Source of the DNA: a virus
IMG/VR virus record: IMGVR_UViG_3300034101_004588
Span: 124,001 to 188,000 of that record
Strand: one strand, 5' to 3'
DNA: 64,000 nt
Below are positions 13,286-64,000 of the stretch, in pieces. Position numbers and translations under genes: made by a program. Each line of letters opens with the position of its first letter. The stretch's first letter is position 1. Under the pieces are notes generated by a model that was not told the DNA's origin, ran no database searches, and saw only the letters and a list, made by a program, of their open reading frames with translations.

Positions 13286-13288
13286 TTA

Positions 13289-13570: not shown

Positions 13571-13581
13571 AGTGTTAATAT

Positions 13582-15021
13582 TTAGATGTATACTGCAGAA
13601 AGTCTATCTGTCCAAGCGACGTTCGTAGCTTTTCCAGTAGCAGAAACTGTTCCTGTTGTTGTAAATACGGTTCTGTTAATAATCCAAACACTATTAGTAT
13701 CTAAAGAACCGGTTACTGCTTTACCAGAATAAGACGTATTTGGGATATAATCAAAACGATAAGTGTAAGTTATAATAGGCTGAGCTGATAAAGAAGATAA
13801 AGAAATGGTATTGCCATTAGATATAGATAAATTATAAGACGTCGAGTTCCAAGATAATGTTTGTGAATCGGTCTCAGCAGTTAAAAAGATATCTACTAAA
13901 TCTGTTCCACCGGAAAGAATTTTATTTGTAGTATTTAAATCTCCTTCTATATCTAAAATATTATTTGGTCCAGATAATTTACCGTCTGGTTTAAAAGTCC
14001 AATTATAATCATCTAATGTAGTTAAAACTATTTCATTATCTGTATTATCAAAAGTTATGCTGTTGTTATTTGAATCATAAGCATAAAAAGCCGATGGAGA
14101 TAAAGCAACTTTAACAAAAGATGATAAAGAAGTATTTTCCGATTCTAATGATAAAGTTTTTTCGTCTCCTATACGTATAGTGTCATCTGGTATAGATAAA
14201 GTACCATCTGCACTAAGAATAAAAGATTCTGTTCCAGCTATTAATCTATCGGGAAGACTCCCACTAGAAAATACTGATGCTAAATCAACGCCACCAGAAA
14301 GATATTGTCCAGTGACATTTAAAGTTCCGTCCATGGTACCGCCATTACGAAAGTCTCTAGCAAAATTACCATCTCCACCTCCACCCTCCGCAACTACTCC
14401 TCCGCGGAACTTAGAAAAAAATTCTTTGACCTGTTTTTCTACTATTTTATTAATAGATTTTTCTAAATTTTTATTTTCGTTCTTTTCTTCTTCTTTTTCT
14501 GTTTTATTATCTGCTTTTTCTAATTCTTGAACATAAACATTTTCTTTTATTTCTTCTTTTTTCTTTTTTGTGGGAAGCTTTTTAACAGATCTTTTTGAAA
14601 TGTTGATAGGTTCTTTTGAAGATTTAAGATTTTCTATTAATTCTAAAGCAGCTTTTTTAATGTTAGAGTTTTTAGTTTCTTCTAAATTTTGTTTAGGTTT
14701 TATAATTACCTTTTTTGTTTCTAAAGGTTCTAGATTATTTTCCTTTATATCTTCTACAATTTTAACAAGTTTTGGTGGAGAAGTTTTTAAAATGTTAACC
14801 AGTTTATGTAAAAAACCTTCTAAAGGTTCTTTAGAAGAATTGTCTGAAGCCTCTACTATTTCTTTGATTAATAAATTTTTATCTTCAACTACGTTTAAGG
14901 ATTCTTCTATTTTAACATTTTCTGTTGAAGGATTTTTTTCAGACAACAAAACATCTTTGATAGGTTTTTTTTGTTCTGTAGCTTTTTTATATAAATTTAA
15001 AACTTCTTCCGTAGAATCCAT
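13582..15021 (-). CDS. Tail-fibre-type protein with long charged N-terminal helix
   Basis: A 479-residue protein. Residues 1-200 are Lys/Glu-rich and helical (likely coiled coil), followed by a Gly-rich hinge (VVAEGGGGDG), then a beta-rich fibre body beginning NGGTMDGTLNVTGQYLSGG, a motif common in phage short-fibre proteins. The C-terminal domain has strands and an SVWIINRTVF segment. It is probably an elongated tail appendage; it lies at the upstream end of the 10402-15021 structural cluster. Confidence 0.6.
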   Translation of the reverse strand: MDSTEEVLNLYKKATEQKKPIKDVLLSEKNPSTENVKIEESLNVVEDKNLLIKEIVEASDNSSKEPLEGFLHKLVNILKTSPPKLVKIVEDIKENNLEPLETKKVIIKPKQNLEETKNSNIKKAALELIENLKSSKEPINISKRSVKKLPTKKKKEEIKENVYVQELEKADNKTEKEEEKNENKNLEKSINKIVEKQVKEFFSKFRGGVVAEGGGGDGNFARDFRNGGTMDGTLNVTGQYLSGGVDLASVFSSGSLPDRLIAGTESFILSADGTLSIPDDTIRIGDEKTLSLESENTSLSSFVKVALSPSAFYAYDSNNNSITFDNTDNEIVLTTLDDYNWTFKPDGKLSGPNNILDIEGDLNTTNKILSGGTDLVDIFLTAETDSQTLSWNSTSYNLSISNGNTISLSSLSAQPIITYTYRFDYIPNTSYSGKAVTGSLDTNSVWIINRTVFTTTGTVSATGKATNVAWTDRLSAVYI

Positions 15022-20470: not shown

Positions 20471-20681
20471 ATCTTTCTTTAGCTAATTTGTCAATCCAAG
20501 ATTCCTTGTGTCTATATCTGTTCCAAAGATAATTCAACCACCAAACAAATCTTACAGCATAATGGAAAGGAAACATAACCATCACTCTTTGACCTCTAGG
20601 GTAGTCATAATATGCCATAGCCATCCAAGGTCTATCCATAAACCAATCATCAACTCTTTCAAAGAATATATTATTTTTCAT
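20436..20681 (-). CDS. Hypothetical Trp/Tyr-rich protein
   Basis: An 81-residue protein with PWMAMAYYDYPRGQRVMVMF and a hydrophobic WWLNYLW segment, possibly membrane-associated. Overlaps the downstream gene by 35 nt. Unknown function. Confidence 0.45.
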   Translation of the reverse strand: MKNNIFFERVDDWFMDRPWMAMAYYDYPRGQRVMVMFPFHYAVRFVWWLNYLWNRYRHKESWIDKLAKERYDRFKEQNNLW

Positions 20682-20832
20682 GCCATTGATCTTCTAATGT
20701 CCATTTTAGATCTTGTCTAAGGTTTAGTTCTTCATCAGAATAGCCATAATTGATACCTTCAGGAAGATCAGCAGCCCTTTGAACTCTTAGGTCAATGTAC
20801 TTGAGTAATAGTTCTAATTGTTCTTTTGTCAT
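20671..20832 (-). CDS. Hypothetical small helical protein
   Basis: A 53-residue frame from ATG 20832 to TAA 20671 (MTKEQLELLLKYIDLRVQRA). Acidic, helical. It overlaps its neighbours by 4 and 11 nt, the tight spacing expected of a real gene. Confidence 0.5.
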   Translation of the reverse strand: MTKEQLELLLKYIDLRVQRAADLPEGINYGYSDEELNLRQDLKWTLEDQWHEK

Positions 20833-21113
20833 AATTTAGGTACTCCTTGAGATAGAAGGAAATCATCTCCAAACTTTTCCCAATACTTTTTTGCTCTAGT
20901 CATAATACTATCAAGCACTTCTTTTCTATTTTGCTCTTTCATGGCTTCAATATCATTTTTAAGCTTTCGGTAAACCTCACCAATAGCAAATTTATTATCC
21001 TGAAGCATAAAGAGATCATCTTCAGACATTCTATGACAAGCCCAAAGGTCTGTTTGCTTTGATGGGCAATAGTCTCTAACTCTTATTTCAACCATTGGAC
21101 TCATTGTATTCAT
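20829..21113 (-). CDS. Hypothetical protein
   Basis: A 94-residue protein from the ATG at 21113 (MNTMSPMVEIRVRDYCPSKQ); an earlier ATG at 21149 would overlap the upstream gene more deeply. Contains a W-A-C-H-R-M segment and a charged helix (KNDIEAMKEQNRKEVLDSIM). Unknown. Confidence 0.5.
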   Translation of the reverse strand: MNTMSPMVEIRVRDYCPSKQTDLWACHRMSEDDLFMLQDNKFAIGEVYRKLKNDIEAMKEQNRKEVLDSIMTRAKKYWEKFGDDFLLSQGVPKL

Positions 21114-21285
21114 CCTTTTCAAATAGTTCTCTCCATCTCCATGGACCATAAGCTGACATTGACAGAAAGAGACCTAATACCACCCACCACCCTGACCATC
21201 CCTGCCAACCATAAAGGTAAATAGAGCCTCCCAGAACTAAAGATTCCCAGAAGATAATATAGATCAAGTATGTTAAAGCTCTCAT
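21088..21285 (-). CDS. Two-span membrane protein
   Basis: A 65-residue protein with two hydrophobic helices (about 3-24 and 31-46) joined by a Gly/Trp-rich turn. The frame on this strand at 21119-21340 is an out-of-frame shadow. ATGA overlap with 21282-21443. Confidence 0.5.
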   Translation of the reverse strand: MRALTYLIYIIFWESLVLGGSIYLYGWQGWSGWWVVLGLFLSMSAYGPWRWRELFEKDEYNESNG

Positions 21286-21443
21286 TTTGTCTTAGAATGT
21301 TTTGTGCAAAGAGTTTCATACCCTTCTTGAGTACATTCACTCTCAGGGGTGGTTAGCTTTCTAATTGCTTTATTTGTTTCAAAATCGTTTAATGCTATGA
21401 ATTTACCACAAACATCACATCTGTTCCATATCTCTTGTTTCAT
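21282..21443 (-). CDS. Small zinc-finger-like protein
   Basis: A 53-residue frame from ATG 21443 to TGA 21282. C-D-V-C-G-K near residues 9-14 with a later C...C-T-K-H suggests a zinc ribbon. ATGA overlaps on both sides place it in a translationally coupled string. Confidence 0.55.
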   Translation of the reverse strand: MKQEIWNRCDVCGKFIALNDFETNKAIRKLTTPESECTQEGYETLCTKHSKTK

Positions 21444-21616
21444 TTTGTCTTAAACTGAAATTTAGCATCACCATTTGCATCAGCAACCCATTCAGCTGCT
21501 CCAGCCTTTACAGCTTCTTTTTGCCATTGATGTCCACTAACAGCACCACCAAAGATGAATATTGCTATTAGGACAAAGATTAGCATCAGTATATATACAG
21601 GACCATTTTCGTTCAT
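21440..21616 (-). CDS. Small single-span membrane protein
   Basis: A 58-residue frame from ATG 21616 to TGA 21440. Residues 7-26 are a transmembrane helix (VYILMLIFVLIAIFIFGGAV), followed by a soluble SGHQWQKEAVKAGAAEW tail. The tail resembles small phage proteins with a 'H..A...G.AEY' pattern. Unknown function. Confidence 0.55.
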   Translation of the reverse strand: MNENGPVYILMLIFVLIAIFIFGGAVSGHQWQKEAVKAGAAEWVADANGDAKFQFKTK

Positions 21617-21617
21617 A

Positions 21618-21914
21618 TTAAATTTCTATATCTTCTAGTATTTCGTTAACAACTTCAGAAACATATCCAACTGAGTTCCTCATATTTTGTATTTGTTTAC
21701 CTAAAGATGACTGGCAAATTTCTCTAGGGGTAGCTGTTTCATTTACAGTTTTATCAACTTGTTTTAGAACAGGTTTAAGTCTTTTTGCAAGCAGATCTGT
21801 AACAAGATGATTAAGCACTTTAATTTCTTCTTCAAGCTTAGTAAGCTCCCTAATAATTTCTGGTTCTCTTACAGGTGTTTCAGTATCATATATAGTATTG
21901 TATTTTGTATTCAT
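21618..21914 (-). CDS. Hypothetical helical protein
   Basis: A 98-residue helical protein from the ATG at 21914, which overlaps the preceding stop (ATGA). Long charged helices (LTKLEEEIKVLNHLVTDLLA) suggest a coiled-coil dimer. Unknown function. Confidence 0.5.
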   Translation of the reverse strand: MNTKYNTIYDTETPVREPEIIRELTKLEEEIKVLNHLVTDLLAKRLKPVLKQVDKTVNETATPREICQSSLGKQIQNMRNSVGYVSEVVNEILEDIEI

Positions 21915-22165
21915 AGAGTTCTTGGATCTACCCATTTTAGTATAGGTAGAGGGGTGTTCAACAGCATTTCTATAAATGCTTCTCCTTTATGGGTTAAGGC
22001 ATAGGTATGATTTATCTTCTCAACCTTTTCTACCAGGCCATTTGTGATAAAGTATTGCAATTCACTTTTATGAATTTCAGCAGGAATATCATTTGGTTTG
22101 AGTGTCTGGGTTGTATGAATTTTTAACAGAAGCTTAATCTGCAGAGGTGACCAATTAGTGTTCAT
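21911..22165 (-). CDS. Winged-helix-like small protein
   Basis: An 84-residue protein. Helices SPLQIKLLLKIHTTQTL and KSELQYFITNGLVEKV followed by the wing HTYALTHKGEAFIEML fit a minimal winged helix-turn-helix (as in MarR/PadR-like proteins). It may bind DNA, or a host transcription complex. Confidence 0.6.
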   Translation of the reverse strand: MNTNWSPLQIKLLLKIHTTQTLKPNDIPAEIHKSELQYFITNGLVEKVEKINHTYALTHKGEAFIEMLLNTPLPILKWVDPRTL

Positions 22166-22166
22166 A

Positions 22167-22394
22167 TTATTCTAATTCAGGTAAGTTTCTATGTAGTTTT
22201 AATTCTACTATAAAGTCTCTAACCTTCTCAATAGTAGCATCATCACAATCTTTAAAACTTCCACTATCATATTTGAGCTTTGACCTGCACTCAGATAAGA
22301 TATCACTAATAGTAAGGAGTGCATCCAATCCTGCTACAGCATAAGCATGGTCAGATTTCTCTTCAGGTAGATTGAATTTGAGAATAGCCTTCAC
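22167..22394 (-). CDS. Hypothetical protein, GTG start
   Basis: A 75-residue protein starting at GTG 22394 (KAILKFNLPEEKSDH), adjacent to the previous stop. The opening is a strand with the 'F-x-L-P-E-E' signature common among phage small proteins followed by helices; function unknown. Confidence 0.55.
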   Translation of the reverse strand: MKAILKFNLPEEKSDHAYAVAGLDALLTISDILSECRSKLKYDSGSFKDCDDATIEKVRDFIVELKLHRNLPELE

Positions 22395-22736
22395 TTACTC
22401 TTTATGATACCATTTATTCGAAGTAACACAATCCTCATATTTGACATTATACTTTTCCAAGTATTCTTCAAACTCAATATCTTTGCTATCTTCATTAAAG
22501 ACATAATCAAAGAGCCAGTCTTGACCTTTTTGATTGAGCCTTAAGTCATTGGCTAAGAGATCATAAACTGAATCAATGTGCCTTTGAAGCCTTTGAATGT
22601 ACTCTCGGTCTTTAAAGATCCGATCTTCTGGATGCTCATTAAACTTTGTATAATGTTCTTTAGTAATAGTAGAGGCATCTGGCCCGTAGTGTTTAGTAAT
22701 AGTTAAGTGTGTAGGTTTTTTTGATTTAGTTTTCAT
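22395..22736 (-). CDS. Hypothetical protein
   Basis: A 113-residue acidic protein, helical, starting KTKSKKPTHLTITKHYGPDA. No domain recognised. One nucleotide separates it from its neighbours. Confidence 0.5.
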   Translation of the reverse strand: MKTKSKKPTHLTITKHYGPDASTITKEHYTKFNEHPEDRIFKDREYIQRLQRHIDSVYDLLANDLRLNQKGQDWLFDYVFNEDSKDIEFEEYLEKYNVKYEDCVTSNKWYHKE

Positions 22737-22737
22737 A

Positions 22738-23151
22738 TTAGCTGTTCCAACAATTGTCTGTAGGATCTAAGTTTTTATCATGTTTACCCCAACCAGGTAG
22801 ACTAGAAGCTTTAACATGATCTGAAGAAGGAGGGTTACACATACCATGCACCCATTTGTTCTTTTGAACCTCTTGAAATGGGGTATATTCTTTACCATAA
22901 CAATCAGTTATATTATCACTATCTCCCATGCAGCACCCGTGAGCGTCTTCGTCAATTACATCATCAGTCTCATCATTAACTATCTCTAAATGTCCGTCAA
23001 AGACAAAACCACAAGCTTTCAAATAACACTGAAAATTCCAGAGTATTTGAGTAATAGTGACTTCTCCGGGTATATCAAAAGTTACATCAAGAGGTGAGAA
23101 GTCTTCACATTCTTCGTTATAGATATATTTGAATTGATGTTTTGCATTCAT
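22738..23151 (-). CDS. Hypothetical protein with Cys/His-rich centre
   Basis: A 137-residue protein. The segment IPGEVTITQILWNFQCYLKA followed by G-F-V and acidic patches, D-A-H-G-C-C and later C-N-P-P-S, might bind metal. First gene of the string that ends near 16026. Unknown function. Confidence 0.5.
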   Translation of the reverse strand: MNAKHQFKYIYNEECEDFSPLDVTFDIPGEVTITQILWNFQCYLKACGFVFDGHLEIVNDETDDVIDEDAHGCCMGDSDNITDCYGKEYTPFQEVQKNKWVHGMCNPPSSDHVKASSLPGWGKHDKNLDPTDNCWNS

Positions 23152-23165
23152 ATTTTTTTAAAAGG

Positions 23166-23238
23166 TGGGCCCGGTAGGATTCGAACCTACAACCAATCGA
23201 TTATGAGCCGACTGCTCTAACCATTGAGCTACAAGCCC
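23166..23238 (-). tRNA. tRNA-Met(CAU), elongator-type (or Ile2)
   Basis: Minus strand: acceptor GGGCTTG / CGGGCCC, D-stem GCTC/GAGC with C11-G24 (elongator-like), anticodon loop CTCATAA (CAT), T-loop TTCGAAT. A lysidine-modified Ile tRNA cannot be excluded. Confidence 0.85.
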
Positions 23239-23244
23239 GAAAAT

Positions 23245-23412
23245 TTATTGAGAATTTTTTATCATGTATTGTCTTTGTTCAATATAGATTTGTTTTTTAA
23301 AATTTTCAACATCTTTTTTAATATATCCTTGAATTAAACTAACTATAAAGAAACAAGTAATAAAAGCACCTGCAAAAATTCCAAAAGCAATTATTAAATT
23401 ATCTTTATTCAT
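23245..23412 (-). CDS. Small single-span membrane protein
   Basis: A 55-residue frame from ATG 23412 to TAA 23245: N-terminal transmembrane helix (NLIIAFGIFAGAFITCFFIV) then a charged helix. It fills the gap between a tRNA and 23455-23787. Unknown. Confidence 0.5.
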   Translation of the reverse strand: MNKDNLIIAFGIFAGAFITCFFIVSLIQGYIKKDVENFKKQIYIEQRQYMIKNSQ

Positions 23413-23454
23413 TTAATTTAGGATAATATATTTTTTAAAAACATCAACAATTAT

Positions 23455-23787
23455 TCACTGAAACAATTGTAAAATTTGAGGGTTGTCTGATAAAAATTGA
23501 GCTATTTTATTAATTAAATCTTTTGCCATTTCTTCATTATGTAAAAATATTTCAGGATTTTTTGAAAAAAAGTTATGGGAATAAATTGCCATAGTAAATG
23601 TTGAGATAGCTGGAATAAATCCTACATACTCTCTCCTTATTTCATCCTGATTAAGCCATTTTAATATATCTTTTCCTTTGTTAATCCAATCTTTGGCAGT
23701 GAAGATAAAGTTTTTAAAATCTTTTAAAGAAAATCCTTCTACCAAACATGCTTCATAAACTAAAGCCATTTTTTGTTGTTCTGTCAT
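23455..23787 (-). CDS. Hypothetical protein
   Basis: A 110-residue helical protein from ATG 23787 (MTEQQKMALVYEACLVEGF). A longer GTG-start version would run into tRNA-Ile, so the shorter form is preferred. No family recognised. Confidence 0.5.
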   Translation of the reverse strand: MTEQQKMALVYEACLVEGFSLKDFKNFIFTAKDWINKGKDILKWLNQDEIRREYVGFIPAISTFTMAIYSHNFFSKNPEIFLHNEEMAKDLINKIAQFLSDNPQILQLFQ

Positions 23788-23808
23788 TTGAATACTTATT
23801 CTAAAATA

Positions 23809-23898
23809 TGGGTCCACCCGGATTCGAACCGGGATCTCGCCGCCGTCGCGCAGCTTCTGGTGTATAAGACCAGTGTTTTACCGTTAAACTATAGACCC
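23809..23898 (-). tRNA. tRNA-Ile(UAU) with a long variable arm
   Basis: Minus strand: acceptor GGGTCTA / TGGACCC, anticodon stem CTGGT/ACCAG with loop CTTATAC (TAT), T-arm CCCGG-TTCGAAT-CCGGG. Between anticodon stem and T-stem there are about 23 nt, GC-rich, able to fold as GCTGC-6 nt-GCGGC. Normal Ile tRNAs have a 4-5 nt variable loop, so identity (Ile, or a class II tRNA with altered anticodon) is uncertain. Confidence 0.75.
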
Positions 23899-23904
23899 TA
23901 AAAT

Positions 23905-24084
23905 TTATCTCACGTTTAAACTTTCTTTATCTAAAATCATAGCTGGTAAAAATTTTTGATCAACTATAATCTTCAACTCATCTATTTGTGTCTGTAATTC
24001 TTTTGTTTGTTTAAAATAGATTACAAATAAAATAATAATCATTCCAATAAGGAAACCAAAGAAAATATCTAAATCAAATTTCAT
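23905..24084 (-). CDS. Small single-span membrane protein with coiled coil
   Basis: A 59-residue frame from ATG 24084 to TAA 23905. Residues 5-24 are hydrophobic (LDIFFGFLIGMIIILFVIYF), then a helical KELQTQIDELKIIVDQ segment. Similar in layout to 23245-23412. Confidence 0.5.
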   Translation of the reverse strand: MKFDLDIFFGFLIGMIIILFVIYFKQTKELQTQIDELKIIVDQKFLPAMILDKESLNVR

Positions 24085-24101
24085 ATATTTGTAAAGTTGT
24101 A

Positions 24102-24443
24102 TTAATCATAAAGTTTAATGTTTTTAAGACCTTGCCAATCTGGGTCATCTACAACTGACGTCCATCCTTTTCGCCATTCTAAAACGCTATTAGAGTAATG
24201 TTTTTTTCCGTCTTCGTCAACATGAACTGTACGAACATATTTTACTTCAATGTCTTTAAACATTTTTTCAAGACGAGCTTCTAACATTTTAATAGGCTTC
24301 ATCCAAGAAGGTTGCTTGCTTGACCAAAAATCATAATAAGGTTTATACCAATAGACCAGGTCATAAACCCTTTCCGTCTTTTCTCCAATGACAATGTCCT
24401 TGAAGTGTTTTTTTCCTTTTAGTCTGTAAACGTATGCTCCCAT
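24102..24443 (-). CDS. Hypothetical Trp-rich protein
   Basis: A 113-residue protein (MGAYVYRLKGKKHFKDIVIG) rich in Trp, Tyr and Lys; strands alternate with turns. Driven by its own promoter at 24467-24495. Unknown function. Confidence 0.5.
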   Translation of the reverse strand: MGAYVYRLKGKKHFKDIVIGEKTERVYDLVYWYKPYYDFWSSKQPSWMKPIKMLEARLEKMFKDIEVKYVRTVHVDEDGKKHYSNSVLEWRKGWTSVVDDPDWQGLKNIKLYD

Positions 24444-38965: not shown

Positions 38966-39730
38966 TCAAACTTCCATTGAAGGTATTGAATGTCCACCCA
39001 TAGGATTGCTTGTCGCTTCCTGTGGTTTTGGAGCACCTGCTACTTCGTATATAGATTTTCTAACACTATCTAAATCTGTAATAAAATAATCTGTTCCGTT
39101 TATATTAATAGCTGCAATACTGTCTATGCTAATAATTCTTGGTTCTATTCCTTTTTCCACTCCTTGATAAGATGCTGAACCTTTAGAAGGAGATTTATAT
39201 TGAGATACTTCATCTTTATTGGTTACTTCAAAGTCTGAAGATGAATTGGGATTTTCTTTATTAGCTTTAACCAACACTGGTGAAAAACTAGCAGATATAG
39301 CAACCGGAAGATACCGTAAATAAATCTGTCCTTCTTTTTGGCGCAAAGAGGTACTACCTTCTACATCATCATAAACACTTTTTTGAGCAACAAAATCTGT
39401 TGTTTTTCCTTCTCTTTCTCTTTGACGATTAACAGCTGCTGTATAATCAAAACCAATTTGTCCATTGACTTGAGATACTTTAGCAAAATATGCTTTACCA
39501 TGTTTTAAACCCGGCAAAACAAATGAAGGAGAAGGTGCTTTGTTGCTAGACTCTCTAGTAACTTGAGTAACACTAAAGAAGTTAGTTCCTTTGTGTTTTT
39601 GTTCTACCTCTTTAATAATATTAATCAATTCTGATTTAGTGATATTACCTTGCTTTTCTGGTGTTGATGATATGCCGTAAGCCATTTCGTTGTATACCCT
39701 TTCTAGTAGTATGTGATCTTTATTTTTCAT
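38966..39730 (-). CDS. Protein with N-terminal ILLE module
   Basis: A 254-residue protein starting MKNKDHILLERVYNEMAYG. The N-terminal KDxILLExxY block is shared with proteins at 48691, 50429, 51256, 53650 and 54023. The rest is Ser/Lys-rich with strands, including RYLPVAISASFSPVLVK. It could be an internal virion protein processed after ILLE. The stop lies 13 nt from the tmRNA 5' end. Confidence 0.55.
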   Translation of the reverse strand: MKNKDHILLERVYNEMAYGISSTPEKQGNITKSELINIIKEVEQKHKGTNFFSVTQVTRESSNKAPSPSFVLPGLKHGKAYFAKVSQVNGQIGFDYTAAVNRQREREGKTTDFVAQKSVYDDVEGSTSLRQKEGQIYLRYLPVAISASFSPVLVKANKENPNSSSDFEVTNKDEVSQYKSPSKGSASYQGVEKGIEPRIISIDSIAAININGTDYFITDLDSVRKSIYEVAGAPKPQEATSNPMGGHSIPSMEV

Positions 39731-41134: not shown

Positions 41135-41400
41135 AATTTATATATTTTAACTTTACAATCTTTTGTGCCTTTAATCAACCGGTGATATTCACCTTTTGGT
41201 ATAAAAATCTGCCCTTCAAATTTTTGTGGTAATTTATTATCAAATTGAATTAACCAATCCGTAGATTCTACAGATTCAACTAATCTGTCTTCATCATCAA
41301 AATGCCATTGTAAATCTTCTTCGTCAACTTTTTCGGAAAAATCTCTAACTACACATTTATCTGATAAAAGTTTTTCTTTGAATGGATATTTTTTTACCAT
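41131..41400 (-). CDS. Hypothetical protein
   Basis: An 89-residue strand-rich protein (VKKYPFKEKLLSDKCVVRDF, FIPKGEYHRLIKGTKDCKVK). The end resembles a small cupin- or OB-like barrel, but the assignment is weak. Overlaps both neighbours. Confidence 0.45.
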   Translation of the reverse strand: MVKKYPFKEKLLSDKCVVRDFSEKVDEEDLQWHFDDEDRLVESVESTDWLIQFDNKLPQKFEGQIFIPKGEYHRLIKGTKDCKVKIYKL

Positions 41401-41966
41401 GTACGAGATGATTTAAGACCTAACGCTTTACGATATCGATGAATATTACAAGACCAGTAACCAGCTTTTGTTCTGTCTTTTTTCTGAGAACATTTATGTC
41501 TTGCTGTAAACGATTTTGCTCTGGCTTTGCTGGTATTACGTACTCTCATGTTTGGATCACCAAACGTGACTTTTTTAATAGAACCTTTTGGTGTTTTAAC
41601 ATAAACCGCAAATTTTTTAGGACCACCCGGAGTTCGAAATGGTTTATTTAATTTAACCTTTTTTCCATGGTGAACTGCTTCTATCATTAAATCTTCTTCT
41701 TCAAATAAAGGAGCGTCTAAATAAACTTCTCTGCCTTCGTATATAGCCTTTTCCCCGATATCTGTTTCTAAAATTTCTGCATCTTCGTCAGATAATTTTA
41801 ATTCTCCTTTGTAATACAAATTTTTAGCTTCTTTAATAATCTCAAAAAATTTATCTGAATATATTCTAAATACGTTATCGCAGAGAGTTTGATTATTTTC
41901 TATAACATATTGTAACTCTTTTGAAATTTTATTGTCTTGTAATTTAAAATATTCTGAAAATTTCAT
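41394..41966 (-). CDS. Conserved phage protein with FGDPNM / RHKC...YWSC domain
   Basis: A 190-residue protein. The C-terminal 80 residues (KFAVYVKTPKG, VTFGDPNMRVRNT, ARAKSFTARHKC, AGYWSC) form a domain very common in large T4-like and marine phages, with conserved Cys that may bind zinc. The N-terminal half is acidic and helical (SEYFKLQDNKISKELQYVIE). Function unknown. Confidence 0.6.
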   Translation of the reverse strand: MKFSEYFKLQDNKISKELQYVIENNQTLCDNVFRIYSDKFFEIIKEAKNLYYKGELKLSDEDAEILETDIGEKAIYEGREVYLDAPLFEEEDLMIEAVHHGKKVKLNKPFRTPGGPKKFAVYVKTPKGSIKKVTFGDPNMRVRNTSKARAKSFTARHKCSQKKDRTKAGYWSCNIHRYRKALGLKSSRTW

Positions 41967-42001: not shown

Positions 42002-42169
42002 TTATTTCTTTTTACCCCAGTTTTTAGCTCCTTTTTTGCGACATTTTGCTAAAGCTCCTGCTGCATAATAAGAAGGCCATGCTCCAGATTTTTGGTATTT
42101 TCTTTTTACTTTTTTATAACAAGCATCTTTTTCTTCTAAAACTAATTTTATTAGGTTATTTAAATTCAT
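42002..42169 (-). CDS. Small conserved protein with LVLEE start and CYKKVKxxY domain
   Basis: A 55-residue protein from ATG 42169, whose start overlaps the stop of 42169-42771. NLNNLIKLVLEEKDACYKKV then KYQKSGAWPSYYAAGALAKC and GAKNWG. The CYxKVKxxYxxWPSxYAxGALxxCRKxGAxNWG block is widespread in phages; LVLEE at residues 8-12 fits the putative processing motif. Confidence 0.55.
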   Translation of the reverse strand: MNLNNLIKLVLEEKDACYKKVKRKYQKSGAWPSYYAAGALAKCRKKGAKNWGKKK

Positions 42170-42771
42170 TATGATTTTATTAAATTTGCTTGTGCTGTCC
42201 AAAAATAGGTTTCTCCAGTGGCTCCATTAACTTTTATCCTAAAGAAATTTGGAGAATCAACAACTACATTAGCATCTACTGACGTGTTGTCTCTGGCATG
42301 TATTATCTTAGTAGGAGTGCCTACTAGTTCTGTAATAGATCCAGATGTTGATCTTCTTTTAACGGATCCGGAGAATTCAAAAAAAGCAGTATCTCTGCTA
42401 CTAGCACTACTACGACCTATAAGGTGTATTTTATAATTCCAGGAATCTCCTAAATTTAAAGTCATGTCTGCTCCGTCTTTAGTTAATAAAGTAGTTAAAG
42501 TTGTTCCTGTAGCTGAACCTCTTAAAATTAAAATTTCTGATACATAAGTAGCATCACCAAAAATAACCGGGGTTTCTGCGTATAAAGTTCCATCTACAGT
42601 TAAATCGTTTTTAATTTCTGCATAAGGAAGATTTAAAAATACTGTAGATAAAGCAATTTTAAAGGTGTCTGGATTATCAAAAGTTCCAAAATTTGCTGGG
42701 ATAACCCCTGTATTAAAAGCATTACCTATATAAGGAGGTAATTGACTAATTTTTTTAGATGCTGTAGCCAT
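42169..42771 (-). CDS. Tail/fibre-type structural protein
   Basis: A 200-residue beta-rich protein. KKISQLPPYIGNAFNTG at the start and repeated short strands resemble base or neck segments of phage fibres; NDLTVDGTLYAETPVIFGDA is a fibre-like turn region. Followed by 42002-42169 without a gap. Confidence 0.55.
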   Translation of the reverse strand: MATASKKISQLPPYIGNAFNTGVIPANFGTFDNPDTFKIALSTVFLNLPYAEIKNDLTVDGTLYAETPVIFGDATYVSEILILRGSATGTTLTTLLTKDGADMTLNLGDSWNYKIHLIGRSSASSRDTAFFEFSGSVKRRSTSGSITELVGTPTKIIHARDNTSVDANVVVDSPNFFRIKVNGATGETYFWTAQANLIKS

Positions 42772-48690: not shown

Positions 48691-49968
48691 TTATTGTGCT
48701 CGTTGATCTGCTCTAGCTGCGGATCCCATATCATTTAAAGTGTCGTCTATTAATTTTGCCCAATACTTGTAAGTTTGACTCTTTTTACTATTTTTCATAA
48801 TAGAATCTTCCCATAAAACAGCTTCCCAATTTTCTTTATTTTGTTCTGCTAATTCCATGGCTTGAGCCATTCTTTTGTTAATACTTTCGTAATCTGTGTC
48901 TGCAAATAGATATAACAATTTACGCAATCTTGAATTCATGTCTTCATCTGCTGCATCTGGAGCTCTAACATTAATATATGTATGTTGTAATTCTGCTGGT
49001 AATTCTGTGTAATCTTTTGAATATATCTTTTTTCTAGTATCTATATAAGCTCTTTTTACTCTATAAGATGTAAAGTTTGTAAAATCTGAAGGACCTGCAT
49101 TACGAGTAACTTGATAAATTTGCTCGTCTTCTGTAAGAGGACGATAAACAAATAATTTTTCCAATCCTTTTAACTTTGGTTGCCATTCTTGAGAAATAAC
49201 CATATTCCAATCACCAACTCTTTCACGATTGTTCAACGCATTAGTTAATCTAAATTTACCATCTCTTTGAGCGTGAATAACTATAACGTGGTTGTCATCA
49301 GATACTGGTAAGGTTTCATCATACACAAAATAAACACTGGCACTAGTATCACCGGATCCAAATCTATAACTGTAAAATAAACTTCTTTCTATAGGATAAG
49401 AAATACACCATCCGTAGTATTTGCTGATATCTTTGCTTTCGTTTTTGGCTTCTTCTTCTTTTTCTTTTGATAGAAAACGTTTAAATAAAATACAAGAATT
49501 GGGATCTTTACCAAAATAAACATGAATTCCATTTTTCGGATCTTTGTATATTTCTTCAGCTCCGGTTTCTCCTTCTGCCATTTCAACTTTAGATGCTGCT
49601 TTTTCTGCCGGGTCTCTAAATTGATGGACTATTTTTTCTAGATCAGACCAATTATAAAATTCTACTTGAAGAGGTTGTTTTTTTAAATTTTCAAAACGGC
49701 GAACATCTTTTTGATTTCTTTCATCCGGTTTAATATCTCCACTATCTATATATTGTTGAACTAGTTCTTTAATACGATTAGATGTATTGTTGGCTGTTTT
49801 AAGTTGATCAAATCTTTGTAAGGTTGCTCGAATAGCTGTTTCTTCTACAAATGCTCCTGCTTGTGGTTTTAATCTTTTAATTTGTTGATTGAGAAACCCT
49901 TCACTGTATTCGTTCAAAATAATACCTCCATACACTTGTTCCAATAAAATTTGATCTTTGGTTCTCAT
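48691..49968 (-). CDS. Large protein with N-terminal ILLE module
   Basis: A 425-residue protein starting MRTKDQILLEQVYGGIILNE. The module is shared with neighbours; the body is mixed, with a central GWCISYPIERSLFYSYRFG strand block and HVIVIHAQRDGKFRLTN that suggest a folded enzyme-like or structural domain. Best guess: an internal virion protein whose propeptide is removed after ILLE. No catalytic motif is certain. Confidence 0.5.
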   Translation of the reverse strand: MRTKDQILLEQVYGGIILNEYSEGFLNQQIKRLKPQAGAFVEETAIRATLQRFDQLKTANNTSNRIKELVQQYIDSGDIKPDERNQKDVRRFENLKKQPLQVEFYNWSDLEKIVHQFRDPAEKAASKVEMAEGETGAEEIYKDPKNGIHVYFGKDPNSCILFKRFLSKEKEEEAKNESKDISKYYGWCISYPIERSLFYSYRFGSGDTSASVYFVYDETLPVSDDNHVIVIHAQRDGKFRLTNALNNRERVGDWNMVISQEWQPKLKGLEKLFVYRPLTEDEQIYQVTRNAGPSDFTNFTSYRVKRAYIDTRKKIYSKDYTELPAELQHTYINVRAPDAADEDMNSRLRKLLYLFADTDYESINKRMAQAMELAEQNKENWEAVLWEDSIMKNSKKSQTYKYWAKLIDDTLNDMGSAARADQRAQ

Positions 49969-49980
49969 CTATTTTAATAT

Positions 49981-50427
49981 TTACCAGTTTTGTTCATAAT
50001 ATTCTGCTCTGGTTAAAGATGGAGAACCTAATATATTTTCTATTCTTGAAACTACTTCTTCATCATCAATATTACAAGGACCTCCTACATGCCAATTATA
50101 TTCTTCTCTTGGTATGCGTTTTTCTCTATAGACATATATTGTAACTATTAATCCGTCTTCAAACTGTATTACCCATCTAGCTAAAACCTTATCGTCTTCT
50201 GTATAAATTGGTTTACCAAATTTATCTATCAATTGTTTGTGTGTTGTTTTTACGTATCCTTTTAAACAAGTACCAGATATTTCTATATCATTGCTATTAA
50301 TTTTTTTTATCTTATAGCGATTTGAAAAGGATCTCAAAGCTTGAACTTTATTTAAATCTGCTTCTAAAAGAGATGCATAAACATTTTTTAAGGTTTTAAA
50401 TTTTTTGGGTATATTACTTTTATTCAT
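49981..50427 (-). CDS. Protein with N-terminal SLLEA-KVQALRSF module
   Basis: A 148-residue protein. The module lies at residues 21-38 (SLLEADLNKVQALRSF), further in than in its relatives. The rest is strand-rich: WVIQFEDGLIVTIYVYREKR and WHVGGP. Lies in a run of six genes with the same module. Confidence 0.5.
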   Translation of the reverse strand: MNKSNIPKKFKTLKNVYASLLEADLNKVQALRSFSNRYKIKKINSNDIEISGTCLKGYVKTTHKQLIDKFGKPIYTEDDKVLARWVIQFEDGLIVTIYVYREKRIPREEYNWHVGGPCNIDDEEVVSRIENILGSPSLTRAEYYEQNW

Positions 50428-50428
50428 A

Positions 50429-50827
50429 TTAATACGAATTCCACATTTTTAACCATTTATCATAATTTGGTTCTATTTTTCCGTCTATTACCAATTCTCT
50501 TAATACCACTTCTGCAACTTTGAAAAGGTGAGAAGTTGGAGGTATTTCTGCATCCAAACTAGTATATTCACTGTCTGAAAATCTTTTTAAACTTATTAAT
50601 TCCATTTCTGGTTCTTCTAGAGCCCACTCAAACGTATACCTTGCTTCGTAATGGTCGTCTTTAGCAATAAAACTTAATATATAAATTTTATTGTCTTTAT
50701 CATAATCTTCGTTTTCTATTATAAAATCCCTGCCAGGTCCTAAGTCTTTATCAAAATCCATAAATTTTTTTAAACCTTGAATCTTATCATATTGAGATTC
50801 TAAAAGTATTTGATCCTTGGTTTTCAT
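50429..50827 (-). CDS. Protein with N-terminal ILLE-KIQGLKKF module
   Basis: A 132-residue protein starting MKTKDQILLESQYDKIQGLK. The body (IYILSFIAKDDHYEARYTFE, LISLKRFSDSEYTSLDAEIP) matches that of 50843-51259, so the two are paralogues. Probable packaged internal protein. Confidence 0.55.
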   Translation of the reverse strand: MKTKDQILLESQYDKIQGLKKFMDFDKDLGPGRDFIIENEDYDKDNKIYILSFIAKDDHYEARYTFEWALEEPEMELISLKRFSDSEYTSLDAEIPPTSHLFKVAEVVLRELVIDGKIEPNYDKWLKMWNSY

Positions 50828-50842
50828 TTTTATTATTTAGGT

Positions 50843-51259
50843 TCAATAATCTGGTTTCCAAAAATGAGGCGGTATTTCTGGTTCCAGTTTACCTGCATCT
50901 ACCAAGGCTTCTATCTTTTCTTCTGCGTCTATAAAAAGTTTTGAACCAGGTGTTATTTCTGCTTCTAGATAATCATAATTTTCATCTGCATATCTTTTTA
51001 AACTCAAAAGTTTTATAATATGATCTGGATTCCAACCTTCGTATTTCCACCAAAAATTATATCTTGCTTCATAATAATCATCTTTAGCTTTAAAGGATAC
51101 CACATAAATTTTTGCTTGATAATTCGGAAATTCTGTGTCTTTATATAATATTTGAAAATGAGAAGGGTCTCCTAAATCCGATTCTCTTTCGGCAAACTTT
51201 TTAAGAGCTAAAATTTTATCTGTAGCTTCTCTTAATAATTGTAAATCCTTTTTATTCAT
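50843..51259 (-). CDS. Paralogue of 50429, N-terminal LLREA-KILALKKF module
   Basis: A 138-residue protein from the ATG at 51259, overlapping the preceding stop (ATGA). NKKDLQLLREATDKILALKK opens it; IYVVSFKAKDDYYEARYNFW and LLSLKRYADENYDYLEAEIT align with 50429-50827. Tandem duplication. Confidence 0.55.
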   Translation of the reverse strand: MNKKDLQLLREATDKILALKKFAERESDLGDPSHFQILYKDTEFPNYQAKIYVVSFKAKDDYYEARYNFWWKYEGWNPDHIIKLLSLKRYADENYDYLEAEITPGSKLFIDAEEKIEALVDAGKLEPEIPPHFWKPDY

Positions 51260-51744
51260 GGACCATACCACCTAGTTGATGCTGTGAAATAATCTAAAAA
51301 GTCATTGTAATCAGGTTCATTATAAAATGTTGTCAAATAATCATAAGCTTTACTTCCTAATTCTTCTGTTAAATCTTCAGACCAATTTTTTTTAAATTTT
51401 TCATAACCGCCATAATTTTCTAAAGTATCTTTGGTTGCTTTATCGTACAAAGCTTGGTGTAAGAATCCTTCATACTCTTGTTGTATTTCTCGAGAAGACA
51501 AATGGTCATAATAAAAATCTACATTTATTGGATTTAATTCTATATTTCTTTTTACATGGTCTAGATATTCTGGTAAAATAGACATATACAATTCTCTGGG
51601 AACACCCATGGAAGAGTTTTCATATTCGTCTATGGTTAGTTTTTTAACATGATCTAAAACATTAAGCTCTTTATTGGCAAATTGTTTAAACGCTTGTATC
51701 TTGTCGTATTGAGCTTCTAAAAGTATTTGGTCTTTATATTTCAT
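51256..51744 (-). CDS. Protein with N-terminal ILLEA-KIQAFKQF module
   Basis: A 162-residue acidic protein starting MKYKDQILLEAQYDKIQAFK. After the module the body is helical and unlike the neighbours (YLDHVKRNIELNPINVDFYY). ATGA overlaps on both sides. Confidence 0.5.
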   Translation of the reverse strand: MKYKDQILLEAQYDKIQAFKQFANKELNVLDHVKKLTIDEYENSSMGVPRELYMSILPEYLDHVKRNIELNPINVDFYYDHLSSREIQQEYEGFLHQALYDKATKDTLENYGGYEKFKKNWSEDLTEELGSKAYDYLTTFYNEPDYNDFLDYFTASTRWYGP

Positions 51745-52085
51745 TAAACAAATAATTCTACAACATCTTTAATATCTGGAATTATCATTTCTATATCATC
51801 TTGGTCTATCTCTTTTCCTTCTTTATCATAAAGAGGAGTTTCTAAATATTTTTGCGAAGATACCCAGTTTCTATAAAAATTATCAAATTCTGGTGTAGAT
51901 AAAAATCCAGCAAATGTTTGTATAGCAGAATTTAATTTATCTATATGTTCATTGTACTTGCTAATCATAAGACCGGCTTCTCGGCGATCTTTTTCATCTT
52001 TAGAAAAAGATTTTAGTCCTTGAATTTTTAGATTAGTTATTTCTTCTGCAGCTTCTTGTAATAATTGTAAATCTTTTTTTGTCAT
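51744..52085 (-). CDS. Protein with N-terminal LLQEA-IQGLKSF module
   Basis: A 113-residue protein (MTKKDLQLLQEAAEEITNLK) with helical body. Starts with one base overlap after the next gene. Same family module. Confidence 0.5.
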   Translation of the reverse strand: MTKKDLQLLQEAAEEITNLKIQGLKSFSKDEKDRREAGLMISKYNEHIDKLNSAIQTFAGFLSTPEFDNFYRNWVSSQKYLETPLYDKEGKEIDQDDIEMIIPDIKDVVELFV

Positions 52086-52402
52086 AATTGTTCACTTGCA
52101 TAAATGCCTAATTTTTTGTGAGCTTCATCTCTGTTTAAGAAATGCCATTTGTTGTTAGTTGGGTGTATAAAAGCGAATCCTTCTTCAGGTTTTCCTTTAT
52201 CATACCATTTATCGGCTTCTTCATCACTAGGAATACGACCTAATTTTTTAGGAAGATATTCGTCAAATATTTCTCGAAAAACAAAACCATGACCCATGCG
52301 AGTTTTATCATGGAATATTTTTCCGTATACTTTAATAGCGGGGTAAAGCTTAATGCCTCCACGAGCTTCAAAAATCAGACAAATATAATATGTATTAAAC
52401 AT
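52082..52402 (-). CDS. Hypothetical protein
   Basis: A 106-residue mixed protein (MFNTYYICLIFEARGGIKLY) with G-R-I-P-S-D-E-E-A-D-K-W-Y-D-K-G and WHFLNRDEAHKKLG; no module. Overlaps the module-bearing gene by 4 nt. Confidence 0.5.
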   Translation of the reverse strand: MFNTYYICLIFEARGGIKLYPAIKVYGKIFHDKTRMGHGFVFREIFDEYLPKKLGRIPSDEEADKWYDKGKPEEGFAFIHPTNNKWHFLNRDEAHKKLGIYASEQL

Positions 52403-52432
52403 ATCATATATTTATAGAAACCAGGTGGTATT

Positions 52433-52951
52433 CTAAAATACTTGCTGCAAAAACTCTGCTACTTCTTTATCTTTAATAGATTGTCCTTCATGCAGAATCT
52501 CACAAACAACCTTATACATATCAAAAGCCTTGCGTTCAAAAAACTTTGTTGCCTCTTCATATCCTAGAGTCTCAATCCAACAATTCATTTGTGGGTATTG
52601 AGGAGCAGCATGGAAGATACATCCATTATGAAAATTACCAATCCAACACAAAAGAAAGATTGCTCCTTTGACACCTTTTTCTTTAACCATGTATTCAAAG
52701 AATACAGCTCGTTCTTCTGGGTCTTTACCTACATACCGATTGAGCTTGGTAATATAAGAACCGTCTAAAAAGATAATCGAACGGCCTTTAGAAAGAACAT
52801 GATCCTTTAAAACGGAAACATTATTATCATTCATATAGACCTTACGAATAGTAGGCCATTTAACATTAACCCCTCTAGAGGAAAAAATAGACGAACCTAT
52901 CAAAGGTTGTCGATTCATTGACACTTTTTTATTTTGACGAAGATCTATCAT
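52433..52951 (-). CDS. Hypothetical protein
   Basis: A 172-residue protein, basic start (IDLRQNKKVSMNRQPLIGSS), hydrophobic core VKGAIFLLCWIGNFHNGCIF and acidic C-terminus. No family recognised. Promoter 7 nt upstream. Confidence 0.5.
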   Translation of the reverse strand: MIDLRQNKKVSMNRQPLIGSSIFSSRGVNVKWPTIRKVYMNDNNVSVLKDHVLSKGRSIIFLDGSYITKLNRYVGKDPEERAVFFEYMVKEKGVKGAIFLLCWIGNFHNGCIFHAAPQYPQMNCWIETLGYEEATKFFERKAFDMYKVVCEILHEGQSIKDKEVAEFLQQVF

Positions 52952-52958
52952 GTTTAAA

Positions 52959-52987
52959 ATGATAGATTAAATTGGTGGGAAATACAA
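52959..52987 (-). promoter_or_regulatory. TTCCC-type promoter of the 52951 gene, leaderless
   Basis: Minus strand TTGTAT (52982-52987) followed by TTCCC, 17-bp spacer, TATCAT (52959-52964), 7 nt to the ATG. Matches the 55-63 kb class. Confidence 0.65.
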
Positions 52988-52992
52988 GAATA

Positions 52993-53172
52993 TTATTCGG
53001 TTTTATATCTTTCTTTAATCCATTTAGATTTGAATTTTAAAGTCCAGTCGATCAAGGCTCGAGGAAATCCAATATCGTAACCCACTTTTTCTGACTCATA
53101 CCATTTGTGTTTATTGATCTCTTCTTTCATAGCCAAGAATTCTCGGTAAAGGCTAGTTTTTTCTATATTCAC
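52993..53172 (-). CDS. Conserved small protein, GTG start
   Basis: A 59-residue frame from GTG 53172 to TAA 52993. HKWYESEKVGYDIGFPRALI followed by D-W...K-x-K-W is a small block common in bacteria and phages (K-W-x-E-S-E-K-x-G-x-D-I-G-x-x-x-A-x-x-D-W), function unknown. Confidence 0.6.
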   Translation of the reverse strand: MNIEKTSLYREFLAMKEEINKHKWYESEKVGYDIGFPRALIDWTLKFKSKWIKERYKTE

Positions 53173-53195
53173 TCTATCTATTAATATTTATCATT

Positions 53196-53666
53196 TTAAG
53201 AGGTTATACGAAACGCAAATTCAACACCATCATTAGATTTAACTATTTTAAAACCATTTTGTTTATAAAAAGACATTAAATTTTTATGAGATGATTTGTT
53301 TTGCCCTGAAGAAATTTCTCCCGGAGATAATGCCATAAGGGTTCCTGAGGGATATTGCATGGCTAAAGTATTAATGATCTCTGAACCCCTACCTAATCCT
53401 CTTTGTGTAGAAAGTATTCTTAATAATTGAATCCATATATAGGTAAATTTTTTTGGTAGTTTTAAAGACCTTAGATATTTTGCTACCGGATCATTTTTGG
53501 GATCATCAAAATAAAAAAGATCAATAACCTCAGATATTGTCAGGTTTTCAGCAACGTCCCAATCGAAGTCTGCTATTTTTTTACCATCTTCTCGAACTTC
53601 TTCTCGAGACATATCAAATTCTAAAGACTCTAGAATTTGTTTTATTTTATTATTGAACCGATTCAT
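53196..53666 (-). CDS. GNAT-family acetyltransferase with N-terminal QILE motif
   Basis: A 156-residue protein from ATG 53666. The acetyl-CoA loop is STQRGLGRGSEIIN (Q/R-x-x-G-x-G) and SFYKQNGFKIV is the usual GNAT C-terminal strand. Its N-terminus NRFNNKIKQILESLEFDMSR has an ILE motif like packaged proteins, suggesting it may be delivered with the DNA. Substrate unknown. Confidence 0.65.
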   Translation of the reverse strand: MNRFNNKIKQILESLEFDMSREEVREDGKKIADFDWDVAENLTISEVIDLFYFDDPKNDPVAKYLRSLKLPKKFTYIWIQLLRILSTQRGLGRGSEIINTLAMQYPSGTLMALSPGEISSGQNKSSHKNLMSFYKQNGFKIVKSNDGVEFAFRITS

Positions 53667-54018
53667 TTTCAAACCAATAAATCATTCCATTAGGACCTTC
53701 TTCCATTTTTAGGTCATCATGTTTGATTCCTACTTTAGAAAGAAGATTGCCTAATCTTTCTCCAGTCGCTTGAAAATCAAATAAAGAATAATCCGTATTA
53801 AAAATTTGTTTATACATTTCATCTAAATCAGAAAACTTTTCTTGGTTATCATAAATTTTCTTCTTAGAAAAAAGACTATTGCCGAACATTTCTTTCAAAC
53901 GAGAAGCAAAGGTTTCAGACAATTCATCATAAGCTTTCATCTGAACTTTTTTCTGTTCTTTGGCTTGGTTAATTTTACCGTAAGTCTCTTCTAAGAGTAT
54001 TTGATCTTTATTTTTCAT
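53650..54018 (-). CDS. Protein with N-terminal ILLEE module
   Basis: A 122-residue protein starting MKNKDQILLEETYGKINQAK. Helical, charged; DYSLFDFQATGERLGNLLSK near the centre. Overlaps the acetyltransferase gene by 17 nt, so the pair is co-expressed. Confidence 0.5.
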   Translation of the reverse strand: MKNKDQILLEETYGKINQAKEQKKVQMKAYDELSETFASRLKEMFGNSLFSKKKIYDNQEKFSDLDEMYKQIFNTDYSLFDFQATGERLGNLLSKVGIKHDDLKMEEGPNGMIYWFENESVQ

Positions 54019-54022
54019 AAAA

Positions 54023-54274
54023 TTATTCTTTAGATTCTGTATATTTTAGATGTCTTAATATATCTTCAAAGACCTCGACTACATTATTAAAATTACCCCA
54101 ATAACCTAATCCATCTTGATTCTCGGCCTCATCAATATATTCATTAAAAGCTTCCATGACCTTATTTTTAAAACGCCAGAGTTCTTCTTCTTGAAAATCT
54201 TGTAAGGCCTGTAGTTTTGGATTTACAATTTTATCCATTTCCGCTTCCAAGAGTATTTGATCTTTAGATCGCAT
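54023..54274 (-). CDS. Small protein with N-terminal ILLEA-LQALQDF module
   Basis: An 83-residue protein, MRSKDQILLEAEMDKIVNPK then LQALQDFQEEELWRFKNKVM. The module makes up nearly half of it. First gene of the 48415-54274 string; divergent from 54335. Confidence 0.5.
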   Translation of the reverse strand: MRSKDQILLEAEMDKIVNPKLQALQDFQEEELWRFKNKVMEAFNEYIDEAENQDGLGYWGNFNNVVEVFEDILRHLKYTESKE

Positions 54275-63024: not shown

Positions 63025-63360
63025 TTAATCTGTATCTTTAATGAACTTCATAAGCTGTCTACCCCAATCAAAGAGGTTTTCCGGAAATTCTTTAATAGTT
63101 TTCATACTATAGTAAAGATTAAATTCTTCAGGGGTCTTTCCAGGTTTATTTTGTAATTGTTCTAAGACGTCTTCAATCCTTTGATTAATTTCTTCTTCTT
63201 GACCTATCAAGACCTTTTCTATATCTAATATAAGCCCAAAAACCTGATTGATCTTACGGGAGAGCTCCATTATATCTTTTTCTTTATTAGCAAATTCTTT
63301 AAAGGCATCAACCTTATTTTGCACCTGATTATAGGCTTCGGATAAACTTTTATTATTCAT
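63025..63360 (-). CDS. Protein with N-terminal LSEA-KVDAFKEF module
   Basis: A 111-residue helical protein: NNKSLSEAYNQVQNKVDAFK, E-F-A-N-K-E shares the second half with 51256 (FKQFANKE). Overlaps 63353-63940 by 8 nt. Probably a member of the packaged-protein group. Confidence 0.5.
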   Translation of the reverse strand: MNNKSLSEAYNQVQNKVDAFKEFANKEKDIMELSRKINQVFGLILDIEKVLIGQEEEINQRIEDVLEQLQNKPGKTPEEFNLYYSMKTIKEFPENLFDWGRQLMKFIKDTD

Positions 63361-63940
63361 TGGTCCATTTATCTATCTTTCTTAACATTTCGGAGAGTTT
63401 ATGAATTCCTTGGAAGTCATCTCCTAAAATACTATATTCATTTTCTGATCCCCAATGAGCCTTACGATAGGCAGGGGGCATATGGTTTAGATTAAATCCT
63501 AGGTCTTTGGCATTAGGAGCCCATAAGAGAAATTCTACTTCATTTTTAAGTAAGCGAGCCAGGATCTCTACTATAACATAAGCCTTATAGGTTCCTTCTA
63601 AACCAAAGATATGAAAGTCTCTTTTTTGATTCATTTCAAATTTATAGTTAGTATCTTGAGGGGTAGGTTTTAAAGGATCGGTATATATCAATAAAGGTTT
63701 AGCAGTTGCTCGATTAGGAATTTCCCAGGCCCATACATCATCGAAACCGGACTCTTGAGTAATTTCATCGTTCTCGGTTATATATTTGTGGGGTCCCAAT
63801 ACTCTTTCTAGATCGGCAATGGAAGCTTTAATGGTCAATTCATTTTTATATTGGTCTTTAATTTCTTGTTTAAAGAAATTTTTAAAGCCTTGAGCCTTAA
63901 CATTAGATAAGGTTTCTTCTACAAGTTGATTAAATTTCAT
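63353..63940 (-). CDS. Protein with N-terminal LVEE-GFKNFF module
   Basis: A 195-residue protein: KFNQLVEETLSNVKAQGFKN, then a mixed body with WAWEIPNRATAKPLLIYTDP and an EFLLWAPNAKDLGFNL strand. Same module type as the 48-54 kb cluster. Function unknown. Confidence 0.5.
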   Translation of the reverse strand: MKFNQLVEETLSNVKAQGFKNFFKQEIKDQYKNELTIKASIADLERVLGPHKYITENDEITQESGFDDVWAWEIPNRATAKPLLIYTDPLKPTPQDTNYKFEMNQKRDFHIFGLEGTYKAYVIVEILARLLKNEVEFLLWAPNAKDLGFNLNHMPPAYRKAHWGSENEYSILGDDFQGIHKLSEMLRKIDKWTNE

Positions 63941-63948: not shown

Positions 63949-63977
63949 TATTTATTATTCTCCGGGTGGAAAGAGAA
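63949..63977 (-). promoter_or_regulatory. TTCC-type promoter of the 63940 gene
   Basis: Minus strand TTCTCT (63972-63977)-TTCC, 17 bp, TAAATA (63949-63954), 8 nt to ATG. Overlaps the end of the next upstream gene. Confidence 0.5.
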
Positions 63978-64000
63978 CCTCGTCTTGTAAGGGTTGTTCT
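63955..64000 (-). CDS. C-terminal end of a gene cut by the window edge
   Basis: The minus strand enters the window in an open frame (EQPLQDEVLFPPGE) ending at TAA 63955-63957. Only 14 residues visible. Confidence 0.4.
   Translation of the reverse strand, partial: EQPLQDEVLFPPGE

Follow-up and report, generated by a model that had tools for sequence, protein, structure and literature searches.

A repeated N-terminal leader in an uncultured T4-like phage is a candidate prohead-targeting propeptide

The 64,000-nucleotide stretch of DNA analyzed here (the window) comprises bases 124001-188000 of the 210,956-base T4-like virus record IMGVR_UViG_3300034101_004588 (label G000), and about 12 of the proteins it encodes, together with about 10 encoded just downstream, have short N-terminal elements in common (Table 1). 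Three such elements are intermixed: a leader of the form M[KR]xKDQILLExxY with its variants (leader A); a leader represented by MNFKQYLKE and similar starts, which is patterned like the T4 capsid-targeting sequence and is present in a second cluster at 187-198 kb of the record (leader B); and a phage-specific tag, K[LIV]x[AG][LF][KQ]xF, that follows leader A or leader B or stands at the N-terminus without a leader. The cluster extends beyond the window through record positions 187955-197584 (L013), where proteins have starts such as MNFKQYLKENNKLDALKSF. In most members an [LI]xE sequence closes an N-terminal leader of 10-20 residues.

When the first 40 residues of the 209 genome proteins of at least 100 residues were compared by local alignment, 49 pairs scored at least 45, the majority of them falling in the two clusters (window and downstream), compared with 7 pairs for residues 50-90, 10 for residues 60-100 and 1.5 for shuffled N-termini. 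A chance origin of the shared N-termini was rejected because the internal controls and shuffles fall so far below the 49 pairs. Among the copies of KDQILLE, 39 of 100 same-residue codon pairs differ synonymously, so conservation is at the level of the protein and not of the DNA. The tag lies within the first 50 residues of 18 of the 285 proteins of this phage, within residues 50-100 of none of 251, and in 4 of 2848 proteins of other records, and is therefore particular to this phage.

An earlier note on this DNA, made from the sequence alone, had described a single LLEA-type module after which the proteins diverge completely. All the open reading frames that it named exist and the sharing stands. 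A KD[QH]ILLE start is found in six of them (38966, 48691, 50429, 51256, 53650 and 54023), the proteins at 50843 and 51744 start with the variant KDLQLL[RQ]E, that at 49981 has LLEA at residue 20, and those at 63025 (SLSEA) and 63353 (QLVEE) fit only loosely. The module is composite instead of single, with the tag as a second element behind the LLE leader, and LLEA as the sole common core was rejected because the tag is equally widespread in this phage. Complete divergence was likewise too strong a description, as the proteins at 50429 and 50843 are paralogues (47% identity over 127 residues), and the body of 49981 and several tagged proteins form one domain family.

A T4-type head operon lies at 11.7-16.4 kb of the record and holds head-tail adaptor and head-closure genes, an S77 prohead protease and, after the protease gene, scaffold and gp23-like capsid genes. 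The prohead protease expected by the earlier note is thus encoded in the genome: it is of the gp21 type (record 13115-13786; PF03420, 3.6e-28; phrog_207, 4.8e-59), and its conserved His79 and Ser132 align with the catalytic residues His85 and Ser140 of T4 gp21. The capsid protein shares 34-38% identity with cyanophage gp23 and 56-80% with that of about 50 uncultured IMG/VR contigs, mostly short; no isolate is close to the phage of this record. Searches of IMG/VR with single proteins (gp21, 51256 and 192278) gave no matches. A leader-A gene lies directly beside gp21 in five contigs, in some of them between gp21 and gp22, and S77 is present in the studied record and in the four other leader-A IMG/VR records tested that reach 170 kb or more, shorter fragments being mostly without it.

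The leader genes also share an upstream motif with the head genes. The T4 late promoter TATAAATA was tested alone against every 8-mer of equal composition, and the search was then broadened to nATAA[AG]TAT, which resembles it. The broadened motif is strongly enriched ahead of genes in this record; it precedes gp21, gp22 and neck, tube, sheath and baseplate-region genes (for example, at record 13115, 14029 and 117156), and it also precedes genes or operons with leaders at record 162966 and 176082 (upstream of window 39730 and 52402) and at record 187353, 192278 and 196383. It is probably the late promoter of this phage.

A search for the module beyond the window found it on many different bodies across related phages. 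An anchored DNA pattern for M..KDQ[IT]LLE..Y run on IMG/VR matched 106 stretches, and with near variants added afterwards there are 144 distinct leaders, with up to 10-13 copies per contig; counts at invariant positions are partly circular, since the pattern itself fixed those positions. The only match among bacterial and archaeal genomes, 257 billion bases in all, is antisense to a glycosyltransferase-like reading frame and is therefore a chance match, leaving leader A with a phage-only distribution. Of 48 leaders outside the pattern, 38 retain the LLE glutamate and six others have a shifted L/I-A-E. Conservation falls to background past about core position 17, and a second [LIVMFY]xE is present at core residues 8-28 in 117 of the 144 leaders (nearly always at 11-17), compared with 33% of control windows. 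A mixed 18-row profile of the module had found nothing in 29 contigs because it combined the three elements; a pure leader-A profile and the pattern then succeeded. A tblastn search of the leader against isolate phages found nothing, a 21-residue query having little power, and our literature search, which covered open-access papers, found no description of leader A. As side observations made by eye, the related leader-A phage G030 has apparent GroEL, GroES, DnaK and ClpB-like genes (20545-24434 and 82853-85381; L123-L127), and record G020 has several GIY-YIG endonuclease-like N-termini (GIYKLT..GKIYIGKS; for example, at 45965, 80184, 176835, 181391 and 189084).

Comparison of the leader-A bodies with all other proteins showed that several of them carry leader A in one phage and a T4-type leader in another. 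In three of these families the homology begins right after the glutamate in both forms (a slash marks the boundary). Two of them are ...LYTE/MAYPVSF versus MKSFKQYIKE/MAYPVSF, and ...RLFE/SPEIV versus MISFKKYFLLE/SPEYI. The third pairs the hybrid MRSKDQILLDNISFKQYFLE/KYKRM (YFLE/KYKRM) with MNFDYMVE/KYKRM and MQFDQLVE/KYKRM. More small basic cargo families, including the window proteins at 42002 and 41394 and a cargo of the isolate Flavobacterium phage immuto, have [LI]xE or LxE directly before the body behind other leaders. Two fusion proteins in relatives carry a leader with its glutamate at an internal domain border (SFKDYLLE/KYKRM in L231 and TFKKYFTE/SKKSKSKKRKKKRK in L153), as is expected of a protease site. 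From the swap boundaries, the cargo-family sites and the fusion borders we argue that the leader ends functionally at the glutamate.

Fusions resembling polyproteins, in which a T4-type leader sits internally ahead of basic or DUF5661 cargo, lie at L153:6921-7922, L231:5611-7587 and L171:8947-9936. In phage immuto (L235), an isolated T4-like phage, the N-termini MKKSQLRxIIKExL and NFDLKKFLVENKLTxNS are repeated within 10043-33217, near gp20-gp21-gp23, and are possibly further leader classes.

No convincing family emerged from Pfam or PHROGs for the leader proteins of the window. The body of 49981 belongs to a family whose members in relatives have no leader (E 1e-41), and several more of the tagged proteins are remotely paralogous to it. 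This GTSLxGY...FGEP family seems expanded behind the tag here (window 49981-50427; L013:7126-9282, 9585-10013 and 10010-10417), and a 718-residue protein of the tagged set may contain up to five weak copies of it. The AlphaFold model of 48691 is not usable (predicted local distance difference test score, pLDDT, 44); that of 49981 (pLDDT 74) has a compact body, for which comparison with the PDB gave no significant match, and a low-confidence N-terminal helix, residues 8-35, that spans most of the leader and tag.

Cargo with assignable domains comes from relatives. L040 has a type B leader on an ADP-ribosyltransferase (ART-PolyVal, 7.6e-13, 49.9 bits against a cut-off of 31.2), L203 has leader A on a weak PARP-like body below the Pfam cut-off, and L153 encodes a tRNA nucleotidyltransferase with an HD domain (PolyA_pol, 6e-24) whose homolog in another phage has a type B leader; further bodies are DUF5661, GP88, a weak M91-like body and very basic peptides. 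No ADP-ribosyltransferase body was found in the window. Separately, 19 tRNA genes are dispersed across window positions 15063-62135, and some relatives carry a leader-bearing tRNA nucleotidyltransferase.

Table 1. Leader- and tag-bearing genes of the window and its downstream edge (window positions unless marked as record; a slash marks a boundary after glutamate)
Position	Strand	Gene or protein	N-terminal elements and remarks
38966..39730	-	254-residue protein	leader A MKNKDHILLERVYNE, then MAYGI, cf. LYTE/MAYPV of L157; late-type motif upstream
41394..41966	-	190-residue protein	basic C-terminal domain starts directly after LMIE; homologs in relatives are small proteins with leaders
42002..42202	-	small basic protein	leader end LVLEE, then KDACYKKV; resembles L228 cargo located after QIVE
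48691..49968	-	425-residue protein	leader A MRTKDQILLEQVYGGIILNE without a tag; leader-A proteins of L231 and L168 have related bodies
49981..50427	-	148-residue protein	leader closes with YASLLE (residue 22), followed by tag KVQALRSF; body belongs to the leaderless GTSLxGY...FGEP family
50429..50827	-	132-residue protein	leader A MKTKDQILLE, then tag KIQGLKKF; 50843 is a paralogue
50843..51259	-	138-residue protein	leader A variant MNKKDLQLLRE; tag KILALKKF; likely start ATG at 51259, not GTG at 51271
51256..51744	-	162-residue protein	leader A MKYKDQILLE; tag KIQAFKQF
51744..52085	-	113-residue protein	leader A variant MTKKDLQLLQE; tag KIQGLKSF
52082..52402	-	first gene of leader operon (52402 to 48691)	late-gene motif TATAAATA just upstream
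53196..53672	-	GNAT-like protein (weak Pfam match)	start MNRFNNKIKQILE; possible leader
53650..54018	-	122-residue protein	leader A MKNKDQILLE; no tag
54023..54274	-	83-residue protein	leader A MRSKDQILLE; tag KLQALQDF
63025..63360	-	111-residue protein	SLSE, then AYNQVQN; tag KVDAFKEF
63353..63940	-	195-residue protein	start MKFNQLVE; KAQGFKNF resembles the tag; preceded by late-type motif
63955..64000	-	C-terminal end cut at window edge	part of record 187955-188368, start MGDKDLQILKEVYQTVLENDKLQALKSF
record 190536-197584 (L013)		neighbors of record 187955 gene	same leaders and tag

We consider it likely, with a probability of about 0.8, that the module is a prohead-targeting propeptide of the kind that T4 capsid-targeting sequences represent, that the phage removes it with its own S77 protease of the gp21 type, and that the bodies are packaged and injected. 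The earlier note had read the module as a head-targeting propeptide; those of its predictions that could be computed all held, and this reading draws support from the swaps with a T4-type leader on the same bodies and from several boundaries that fall exactly after [LIVY]xE. Late in infection the leader would dock its protein into the assembling scaffold core, the protease would cut after the [LI]xE at the leader end, and the freed body would remain in the head among the DNA and be injected on infection. Leaders A and B would act as interchangeable plug-in signals, so that bodies could be gained and lost modularly, and the putatively helical tag, which sits directly after the leader, would stay on the mature protein in this phage. 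The likely purpose here, by analogy, is the delivery of host-modifying or anti-defence proteins, since T4 packages Alt and its Ip1-3 inhibit type IV restriction enzymes.

Where the cut would fall depends on the length of the leader. Leader A (M[KR]xKDQILLExxYxx[IV]) is usually followed, some ten residues on at most, by another [LIVMFY]xE. For the short window leaders the predicted cut is most likely LLE/A or LLE/S. For longer ones it would likely be the second [LIVMFY]xE, near residues 13-22 (LYTE/M, ILLKE/N), and not always the ILLE/A of the earlier note; the most likely second-site cuts are YNE/MAYGI (38966), ILNE/YSEGF (48691) and VLE/NDKLQALKSF (record 187955). Members that have no such site may be packaged uncut via the tag, or may not be packaged.

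Several points weigh against the propeptide interpretation. Leader A (KDQILLExxY) does not resemble the MKTYQEFIAE of the T4 internal proteins in sequence, and the clade that carries it is known from uncultured records. The junctions between bodies and leaders A and B are exact in three families, two residues off in one and inexact in three. A few tagged proteins have no [LI]xE ahead of the tag (193126, MNNFKLKALKDF; 196010, MDKNKLKSFQQF), and tRNA nucleotidyltransferase is an unexpected cargo class for an injected protein. Any T4-like phage would be expected to encode S77, and finding the protease together with leader A is on its own a weak argument.

One alternative is that the tag is the true packaging signal in this phage and the [LI]xE leaders are optional. 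The tag is limited to this phage and is common to leader-A, leader-B and leaderless members; however, three of the six window proteins with KD[QH]ILLE have no tag, and other phages have leader A without it. We consider this alternative unlikely. We find it less likely still that the shared N-terminus is a relic of duplication or recombination, a common 5' segment that accepts new bodies and has no role in targeting or cleavage. Both processes evidently occur here, as the tandem clusters, the recent duplicates 50429 and 50843 and the remote paralogues behind the tag show, but the leader is kept at the protein level, with synonymous divergence, in many distinct phages while the bodies change. 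The non-homologous leaders A and B also interchange on one body with the boundary at the same glutamate, and a passive relic would not be exchanged for a functional T4-type signal.

The leader might instead target or dock elsewhere than the head core (the tail, a membrane or a host complex), or be cut by another protease. Leader A's dissimilarity to T4 capsid-targeting sequences, the enzymatic look of some cargo and the indirect placement of these proteins in the head would all suit such a role. The interchange with T4-type leaders, the [LI]xE at the boundary, the gp21 neighbors, the upstream motif of the head genes and the Alt-like cargo indicate the head, and we regard a destination or protease of another kind as the least probable of the explanations weighed here.

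If leader A is a propeptide, it is an apparently undescribed and non-homologous class of a known type of signal, and because it is interchangeable with the T4 label it can be used for finding injected proteins. It would thereby offer a handle on the packaged proteins of an uncultured aquatic T4-like clade that has no isolates; well over 100 candidate injected proteins are nominated, mostly of no assigned function, with mature N-termini predicted to the residue. How a T4-type scaffold selects its cargo, and whether one scaffold reads two unrelated signals, become testable questions. More tentatively, and at somewhat less than even odds, leader A may be a second, independently evolved packaging signal with its own docking site on the scaffold core; single phages would then load at least ten injected proteins (host-modifying ADP-ribosyltransferases, tRNA-end repair, anti-restriction factors and basic DNA-binding peptides), and the retained tag would add a sorting step in the head or during ejection.

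Among known systems, the closest parallel is with the T4 internal proteins IPI, IPII and IPIII, which likewise have a short [LI]xE-ended N-terminal leader on small unrelated proteins, an S77 protease and hypervariable bodies. Unlike them, the phage studied here has many more copies per genome, two leader classes mixed and an extra tag. T4 Ip1-3 have only the leader in common and each inhibits distinct type IV restriction enzymes; the packaged proteins of T-even phages were recognised via this leader (PMC12373910). T4 also packages the ADP-ribosyltransferase Alt, which has a short N-terminal propeptide (PMC9026906), and ADP-ribosyltransferase-like bodies stand behind leaders in the relatives, although these are of another subfamily (ART-PolyVal or PARP-like) and the leader-A case is below the Pfam cut-off. 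In the giant phages SPN3US and phiKZ the prohead protease cuts ejection proteins after Glu (PMC9026906, PMC7411985); there are again many internal proteins with N-terminal propeptides, but, unlike in this phage, the protease is distantly related and there is an inner body.

In T4, ten N-terminal residues are enough for packaging; mutants of IPIII link positions 4 and 7 to targeting and positions 8 and 10 to processing, and gp21 cleaves after L/I-x-E (PMC9026906). The N-terminus of IPII and IPIII is MKTYQEFIAEA. Leader B fits these positions (aromatic 4 and 7, hydrophobic 8, E10), as in MKTFLKYYTE, in MKSFKQYIKE of relatives and in MNFKQYLKE, which is shorter by one residue, and it is 8-fold commoner at N-termini than at internal methionines; judged by sequence, type B leaders have the testable features of the T4 signal. 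Leader A does not have the aromatic 4 and 7, hydrophobic 8 and E10 pattern. It matches T4 in the functional pattern and not in the sequence pattern, and we therefore place it as a new class rather than as a member of the T4 class.

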